Positions 18,176 through 24,625 of a stretch of 64,000 nt of DNA are shown here, piece by piece (the first letter of the stretch is position 1; the number at the start of each line of letters is the position of its first letter). Location of the stretch: contig NZ_AVPK01000005.1 in NCBI RefSeq assembly GCF_000768685.1, positions 186,001-250,000 of the forward strand. The letters are read 5' to 3'. Under the pieces are notes generated by a model. The model was not told the DNA's origin. It saw only the letters and a program-made list of their open reading frames with translations, and did not search any database. The position numbers and the translations under genes were made by a program. Origin of the DNA: Knoellia subterranea KCTC 19937. GTDB lineage: Bacteria; Actinomycetota; Actinomycetes; Actinomycetales; Dermatophilaceae.

Positions 18176-18273
18176 TTGTCCACAGACGGTTGGGGACAAC
18201 ATGGGGACAAGTGGGCTACGCGGTGGACAACGGTGCGTGTGTTGTGGACAAACCGTGGCGTGGCTGTGGACAG
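18176..18273. promoter_or_regulatory. Cluster of DnaA-box-like sites, unit 1
   Basis: Six nonamers of the actinobacterial DnaA-box type lie in 98 bases. TTGTCCACA is at 18176 and, on the opposite strand, at 18243-18251. TTGTCCCCA (complement) is at 18191 and 18202, TTGTCCACC at 18222 and CTGTCCACA at 18265. No dnaA or dnaN gene is nearby, so this is not the usual origin. It could titrate DnaA or control the RNA that follows. Confidence 0.65.
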
Positions 18274-18304
18274 AAATGGAATTCGAGAAAGTTCTCGAAA
18301 GCCC

Positions 18305-18334
18305 TTGTGGCACAACGCAATTGGGGCGTAGAAC
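18305..18334 (+). promoter_or_regulatory. Putative promoter of small RNA copy 1
   Basis: TTGTGG (18305-18310) and TAGAAC (18329-18334) are 18 bases apart. The same hexamers and spacing occur in copy 2 (24362-24391) inside the best-conserved part of the duplicated unit. Confidence 0.5.
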
Positions 18335-18340
18335 TCTCTT

Positions 18341-18524
18341 ACGCACTCCCCTCGGGGAGAGCGGGACAGCTCGGAAACGAACGTCCGCACAGGTGGTTCG
18401 CCCCCCTGCGAGAGCCAGGTGACGTAGGCACTCGGGACCAGAAGAGAAGAGCAGTCGATCGGGATCGTCACATCGACCGATCACCCCGAAGGGCCCTTGG
18501 AACTCATACTTCCGAGGGCCCTTC
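18341..18524 (+). ncRNA. Candidate structured small RNA, copy 1
   Basis: This stretch of about 184 bases is closely similar to 24398-24579 and has no coding pattern. Predicted helices are CTCCCC/GGGGAG and GAGC/GCTC, then a long stem GTCC/GGAC enclosing a CAGGTGG-TTCG-CCCCCCTG hairpin, then GATCGG/CCGATC, then the terminator hairpin. Several differences from copy 2 are paired, for example in the TTCG-capped stem and the GTCC stem. Such changes point to a conserved RNA structure. No known RNA family is recognised with confidence. Confidence 0.6.
18488..18524 (+). terminator. Strong hairpin at the end of small RNA copy 1
   Basis: GAAGGGCCCTTGGAA pairs with CTTCCGAGGGCCCTTC around a six-base loop. 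It is nearly identical in copy 2 at 24543-24579. No U-tract follows, as is common in high-GC genomes. Confidence 0.7.
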
Positions 18525-18570
18525 ACCCTTGTCCGGCCCGGGATCGCGCCCGCTCGGATGTGCCACCTGC

Positions 18571-18645
18571 CGACTTCTTGCCCCGTTGGGACACGGGCGA
18601 CAGCGCGTAGCGCCGCACCGCGTGTCCCAACGGGGCAAGAAGTCG
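18571..18645. repeat. Intergenic palindrome family A, perfect 25-base arms
   Basis: The arm at 18571-18595 (core TTGCCCCGTTGGGACAC) is matched perfectly by its complement at 18621-18645, with a 25-base loop. It lies between small RNA 1 and the convergent regulator and could end transcription from both sides. A single arm recurs at 24601-24625, and a variant palindrome lies at 27497-27560. Confidence 0.85.
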
Positions 18646-24230: not shown

Positions 24231-24329
24231 TTGTCCACAGGGGATTGGGGACAAGTTGGGGACGGAGCCGCAAACCGTGTGGACAACGTGACTCCTGCGG
24301 TGGACGACACGCCCGCCGCCTGTGGACGG
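24231..24329. promoter_or_regulatory. Cluster of DnaA-box-like sites, unit 2
   Basis: TTGTCCACA is at 24231, TGGGGACAA at 24246 and TGTGGACAA at 24278, with weaker TGGGGACGG, GGTGGACGA and TGTGGACGG sites in between and after. Order and spacing follow unit 1 at 18176-18273, with the outer sites more degenerate. Confidence 0.55.
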
Positions 24330-24397
24330 AGAAATTTCTGCAGGAAGTTTGGCGAAACCCCTTGTGGCACACCGCAATTCGGGCGTAGAAATCTCTT

Positions 24398-24579
24398 ACG
24401 CACTCCCCCCGGGGAGAGCGGGACAGCTCGGAAGAGAAGGTCCACACAGTGGGTTCGCCCACTGCGAGAGCCAGGTGACGTGGCACTCGGGACCTGAACG
24501 GAAGAGCAGTCGATCGGGAGCGTCACCACGACCGATCACCCCGAAGGGCCCTTGGAACTCATACTTCCGAGGGCCCTTC
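24398..24579 (+). ncRNA. Candidate structured small RNA, copy 2
   Basis: This second copy of the 18.3-kb RNA keeps the same putative promoter (TTGTGG 24362, TAGAAA 24386, 18-base spacer) and the same terminator hairpin (24543-24579). Its internal hairpin is CAGTGGG-TTCG-CCCACTG, closed within an AGGTCC/GGACCT stem. The corresponding stems in copy 1 differ in sequence but still largely pair. It lies between the protease and furA and is read in the furA direction, but is separated from furA by its terminator and about 200 bases. Confidence 0.6.
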
Positions 24580-24600
24580 ACCTATGTCCGGGCGGGTGAT

Positions 24601-24625
24601 CGTGTCCCAACGGGGCAAGAAGTCG
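24601..24625. repeat. Single arm of palindrome family A
   Basis: The 25 bases here are identical to the right arm of the perfect palindrome at 18621-18645 (core GTGTCCCAACGGGGCAAG). They sit at the same place after the small-RNA terminator, so they appear to be part of the duplicated unit. Confidence 0.8.

Follow-up and report, generated by a model that had tools for sequence, protein, structure and literature searches.

Two related intergenic units

The window, by which we mean the entire 64,000-nucleotide stretch of the Knoellia subterranea genome analysed here, contains two related intergenic units at 18176–18529 (copy 1) and 24231–24584 (copy 2), each composed of DnaA boxes, a CTTGTGG/TAGAA promoter, a structured RNA of ~190 nt, and a terminator hairpin. 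Copy 1 has a PNPOx-like gene on one side and a convergent winged-helix gene on the other, and copy 2 is neighboured by an S8 peptidase gene and furA-katG. Because the unit of another Knoellia genome (G008) also precedes genes read by eye as furA-katG, copy 2 probably occupies the older site. An earlier note on this DNA had described a unit of ~400 bases duplicated 6 kb apart, and the two copies are indeed 81% identical across 349 bases; divergence has been faster in the box region (66% identity) than in the RNA (92%). A search of the whole 3.57-Mb genome (G000) returned these two as the only full-length copies, the third-best match covering only 28 bases.

Copy 1 begins with six DnaA boxes (18176–18273), one on the plus strand (18176–18184) and five on the minus strand (18191–18199, 18202–18210, 18222–18230, 18243–18251, and 18265–18273), all within one mismatch of TTGTCCACA and two of them exact. 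The remaining features are on the plus strand. The promoter predicted from the sequence (18305–18335), of a type common to related loci, has −35 TTGTGG at 18305 and −10 TAGAACT at 18329–18335. The RNA follows at 18340–18529 and matches covariance model R1, of which it is itself a member, with 197.8 bits. It includes a 5′ hairpin (CGCACTC...GAGAGCG, 18342–18363) recognised by folding and covariation counts, a pseudoknot (18419–18471) in which 18419–18424 pairs with 18466–18471, and a terminator hairpin (18488–18524) with a 15-bp stem and the loop CTCATAC, relatives of which are known in other loci.

Copy 2 has three boxes (24231–24286; 24231–24239 on the plus strand, 24246–24254 and 24278–24286 on the minus strand), with more degenerate ones until about 24330; box positions in both copies were converted from distances to the −35 element. 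Its predicted promoter, of the same common type (24362–24392, plus strand), has −35 TTGTGG at 24362 and −10 TAGAAAT at 24386–24392, and its RNA (24397–24584, plus strand) matches R1, again as a member of the model, with 214.7 bits. The terminator hairpin (24543–24579, plus strand, loop CTCATAC) consists of the same 37 bases as that of copy 1, in keeping with the near-identity noted earlier, and the proposed order of boxes, promoter, structured RNA, and terminator is confirmed in both copies. The extent first assigned to copy 2, 24231–24625, is right at its start, although the RNA model stops at 24584 and the remainder includes a repeat arm shared with 18571–18645. That segment, downstream of copy 1, is an inverted repeat whose arms are 36 nt long, and a 24-base arm end occurs once more after copy 2 (24602–24625); it is probably a separate terminator or repeat.

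Structure of the RNA

The copy-1 RNA fold beats 200 of 200 shuffled sequences (z −3.6), and comprises the 5′ hairpin, a multibranch core, the pseudoknot, and the terminator hairpin. Building model R1, as the earlier note had suggested, recovered the RNA from relatives, and 15 long RNAs (seven from the genus Knoellia, one from Intrasporangium flavum, and seven Nocardioides records) were assembled as alignment A4. Standard pairs occupy 98.1% of the cells of the fold and 18 of 59 pairs have changed on both sides, which none of 500 shuffles equals, the fold having been drawn and counted on one and the same alignment. Sliding the partners by 1–3 columns lowers pairing to 40–47%. Further pair types show no excess in A4, with 416 of 500 shuffles reaching the observed number. 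In helix 6, the pseudoknot, every cell is paired and three of six pairs have changed on both sides. Covariation thus supports the RNA fold, pseudoknot included. A conserved protein is unlikely to be encoded here, since near relatives differ by one-base gaps.

A short form of the RNA, 92–96 nt in length and present once in G000, has the same 5′ hairpin and terminator loop as the long form. None of its pairs has changed on both sides among seven short forms, and its fold is therefore based on stability and identity.

Distribution among actinobacteria

The long unit was found in five of the eight other genomes of the same genus searched. A scan of named genomes returned 22 stretches, 16 of which contain the unit (Knoellia, Janibacter HTCC2649, Intrasporangium, and Nocardioides); the other six (L036, L038, L043, L045, L048, and L050) lack its remainder and were judged to be chance. 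In a class-wide search with R1, 41 of 394 genomes match at E ≤0.001. All matches below 1e-10 outside G000 fall in family f34, which includes Nocardioides because the G272 sequence is the same as that of the named locus L049. Weak matches outside f34 are carried mainly by the terminator hairpin, and two (L145 and L146), without a hairpin bearing the loops looked for, were attributed to chance.

When up to two mismatches were allowed, the terminator hairpin was found 47 times, in 37 of 394 genomes, and the reversed pattern not at all. Fifteen are exact and 28 have two mismatches with stem pairing intact in all (G-U counted); of the remainder, three have the loop CUCAUGC and one a single stem change to G-U. 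Among 95 hairpins collected, 87 have the loop CUCAUAC and five CCCUUAC or CCCUUAU, although the set was chosen by loop and is uninformative on other loops. Further actinobacterial families have RNAs of other lengths with the common promoter type and the CUCAUAC loop, the stem varying by compensated pairs. Outside f1 and f34 the body is variable in length, reaching about 470 nt before the loop, and the proposed kinship of these RNAs is based on promoter, start, and terminator, their bodies being unaligned. By eye, a second CTCATAC-loop hairpin seems to sit after the RNA terminator in L023 and L024 (f1-g47).

DnaA boxes at the RNA promoters

Promoters were identified by a rule blind to boxes, requiring a CTTG...TAGA-type promoter and enough upstream sequence. 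Seventy of the 95 hairpins pass, 62 of them non-redundant; the other 25 were left out because the promoter is absent by this rule or there is too little upstream sequence. The 62 promoters contain 86 boxes with at most one mismatch in 9,300 bp (9.2 per kb), versus five in 59,796 bp of flanks (0.08 per kb). In an unguided comparison of 7-mers the box core ranks top, occurring in 36 of 62 promoters and 5 of 384 flank pieces. Box centres lie near −36, −48, −59, −70, −80, and −92 relative to the −35 TTG, and further out, with a period of 11.0 bp (R 0.62) that none of 5,000 random placements reaches. With a common random shift per genus (15 groups) or per family (10 groups), 3 and 5 of 10,000 trials reach it, respectively; as the loci share ancestry, the phase represents conserved spacing and not many independent events. 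Several boxes therefore stand close upstream at conserved spacing, as looked for in a DnaA-regulated promoter.

At least one box is present in 46 of the 70 promoters and at least two in 32. The 24 boxless promoters include all nine of f40, five of 18 in the Nocardioides genus, four of five in f28, and both of f1-g47, together with the two short forms of g1 in the set, one further short form, and one in f13; the RNA family therefore does not need DnaA everywhere. The short form L028 has one box. A different element, GACACGCC, is found around −37, −47, or −57 in 15 of the 62 promoters, and in 1 of 384 flank pieces, and a second factor probably acts at the RNA promoters bearing it. The palindrome GGCGTGTC-N-GACACGCC occurs once or twice per genome in the four genomes searched, and is seen before short-form and some other RNA promoters (G000:C1:134239–134260, L010, L015, L023, L025, and L158). 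The half-site GACACGCC is also present in several promoters with DnaA boxes.

Two further sites in G000 resemble parts of the unit. One, at C33:14061–14088 (L003:1501–1528), precedes a gene read as HU; its 28 bases are 93% identical to the copy-1 promoter (E 1.6e-4) and include GAAAGCCCTTGTGG, and inspection by eye shows no DnaA boxes there. A fourth ACTCATACT in the genome, at C28:116069, is not the RNA and stands before a TetR-like gene, as read from the translation.

Boxes elsewhere and distance from dnaA

The two units contain every exact TTGTCCACA site in the window (four) and half of those within one mismatch (9 of 18). Genome-wide there are 36 exact sites, versus five for the reversed pattern, and oriC and the dnaA promoter are among the other places where they occur; a separate box cluster adjoins dnaA. 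Boxes at RNA promoters are less often exact (17 of 98) than those near dnaA (36 of 77), the latter counted in the 450 bases richest in boxes at 16 dnaA loci. Six Knoellia loci supply most of these 77 boxes, and some of the clusters may be something other than the true origin. The five commonest variants at RNA promoters all occur in the clusters near dnaA as well. TTGTGCACA accounts for 8 of 98 boxes at RNA promoters and none of 77 near dnaA, and TTATCCACA for 4 of 77 near dnaA and none of 98 at RNA promoters.

The unit shares a strand with dnaA in G000, G006, G007, and G008 and lies 87–157 kb away from it, the two G000 copies being at 87 and 93 kb and thus not adjoining dnaA/dnaN as oriC would. 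The RNA and dnaA are about 1.2–1.6 Mb apart by the shorter way in six genomes, four from genus g92 and two from the Nocardioides genus, and 0.27 Mb apart in G279; G004, G005, G272, G321, and G514 have them on separate contigs. The box cluster is therefore away from oriC as at datA, although its origin distance is not conserved between Knoellia and other genera.

Comparison with known RNAs and elements

No Rfam family, 6S included, reaches its gathering score in the window, and at E values up to 10 the segment 18176–18640 (465 bases) matches five microRNA families only, each below gathering score. Across 17 related loci Rfam gives one tRNA and nothing else, and the window contains no tRNA. The earlier note had allowed that the unit might be part of a known mobile repeat; we rejected a phage, plasmid, or viral repeat, as phage and plasmid records contain no match to the unit and two hairpin patterns searched against viral contigs gave none either.

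DnaA is a known transcription factor for protein genes, and box clusters outside oriC are familiar from datA of E. coli and from Streptomyces; the units share that location, but here the boxes are phased with a promoter, paired with an RNA, and variable in chromosomal place between genera. EcpR1 of Sinorhizobium reportedly acts on the dnaA mRNA, whereas the unit RNA is proposed to be a target of DnaA. EcpR1 is described as a small RNA with links to both replication and the cell cycle (PMC4414408). CcnA of Caulobacter, also linked to the cell cycle, is a non-coding RNA whose locus contains DnaA boxes, although it is alphaproteobacterial, is located at the origin itself, has weak boxes inside the gene, and is presumably activated by CtrA (PMC8959179); the units are away from the origin. 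Among the matches listed in the open-licence PMC literature, none is a DnaA-controlled RNA gene in actinobacteria.

Two other actinobacterial RNAs require comparison. Ms1 (MTS2823, scr3559) is structured, has its own promoter, and is also predicted in Knoellia, Intrasporangium, and Nocardioides, in these respects resembling the unit RNA; it is syntenic with a HAD-hydrolase gene ('inhibition of morphological differentiation'), binds RNA polymerase, and is near the origin in some genera, and DnaA is not mentioned in the main text of the paper (PMC9130861). We excluded identity with Ms1 by position, as the HAD-IB genes of G000, G006, G008, and G363 are elsewhere and the unit neighbours differ; CTCATAC is absent from 9 of 10 HAD-hydrolase loci examined. 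CoRP of Corynebacterium is also a structured RNA, but it is 516 nt long, lies between tRNA genes, and binds RNA polymerase, and it has no reported homologs beyond that genus (PMC11077062). Its size and place exclude identity with the unit RNAs of 188–190 nt in a window without tRNA genes.

A proposed DnaA-controlled RNA family

The best reading, to which we give a probability of roughly 0.6, is that the units belong to a family of structured RNAs whose transcription DnaA controls. It is built on the conservation and fold of the RNA, the boxes, their conserved phase, and the shared loop; transcription, DnaA binding, the direction of control, and the action of the loop are what we infer from these. 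The DnaA-controlled small RNA proposed earlier gains from the co-occurrence of boxes and RNA in several families and from the helical phasing of the boxes with the promoter, control itself being a step beyond. Each unit would be a non-coding structured RNA gene with its own promoter and terminator. The boxes, spaced roughly a helical turn from each other and facing the same side of the DNA, precede a promoter whose −35 (CTTG[CT]G) is poor; DnaA bound to this row would set transcription of the RNA, most likely as a class-I-type activator. At class-I promoters the activator touches RNA polymerase from upstream, and such contact would fit the poor −35, the one-face boxes, and the occasional swap for another phased site; repression is the alternative. 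The weaker boxes may make the promoter responsive to high or ATP-bound DnaA.

The RNA would then inform other targets of the state of replication initiation (how much DnaA there is, or in which nucleotide form), perhaps via the conserved terminator loop. CUCAUAC contains the YUNR U-turn motif known from antisense RNAs, which suggests that the loop may pair with another RNA. Start-codon antisense targets through GTATGAG were not enriched in five genomes (9 matches versus 17 in the control), and neither the loop nor its complement was found near dnaA or at the HU locus in seven loci. Mimicry of a tRNA anticodon (CAU) was dropped, as the CCCUUAC variant lacks the U33 that the usual rule calls for. 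In its fullest form the proposal is more tentative and somewhat less probable than its converse: a widespread actinobacterial RNA family would be wired to the initiator, with DnaA on one face switching on an RNA that relays the replication state cell-wide via its near-invariant U-turn loop, and with DnaA replaced in some lineages by a GACACGCC-reading regulator at similar phase. If DnaA control is correct, these bacteria have an RNA output of the replication initiator, the route from replication state to gene expression becomes directly testable, and there is a marker transcript for DnaA activity. The same box-RNA arrangement in many related bacteria suggests an RNA that reports on chromosome replication.

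Three other explanations merit consideration. The boxes could be a DnaA sink near the origin, like datA or the Streptomyces clusters, next to an RNA gene functionally unrelated to DnaA; titration was raised in the earlier note, and the 87–157 kb same-strand distances in Knoellia and the presence of two copies in G000 fit it. We nonetheless think it improbable, given that phasing of the boxes with the RNA promoter is maintained from family to family, that G000 has another cluster of box-like sites without the RNA, and that the RNA is 1.2–1.6 Mb from dnaA in g92 and two Nocardioides-genus genomes; as the distance varies between genera, a sink tied to origin distance is not a general explanation. 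Slightly less probable again is control of the RNA by a protein other than DnaA, bound at the TTGTCCACA-like sites, as the opposite preferences of TTGTGCACA and TTATCCACA and the second phased element GACACGCC might suggest, although the commonest box variants are shared with the clusters near dnaA.

Least likely of all is an RNA polymerase-binding RNA related to Ms1 or CoRP, with the boxes as a lineage-specific means of regulating it. The own promoter and terminator, the length near 200 nt, the actinobacterial range, and the position of Ms1 near the origin in some genera would agree with such a relationship, but there is no HAD-hydrolase neighbour, no CTCATAC at nearly all the HAD loci examined, and no Rfam match. 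Its multibranched fold with a pseudoknot also differs from 6S RNA, a long hairpin with a bubble. This explanation concerns the function of the RNA and is compatible with DnaA control, which remains the reading we prefer.

The cluster without the RNA, a dense intergenic group of box-like sites (TTGTCCACA, TTGTGCACA, GTCATCCACAG, and others) at G000:C30:154613 (L182:1490–1670), is about 37 kb from dnaA and is a better candidate for a DnaA sink than the RNA units. Pairs of exact TTGTCCACA sites, 28–29 bases apart on the same strand, are also present in G000 at C1:164583, C12:428911, C32:135896, and C32:215086, and are possible further DnaA-controlled sites.
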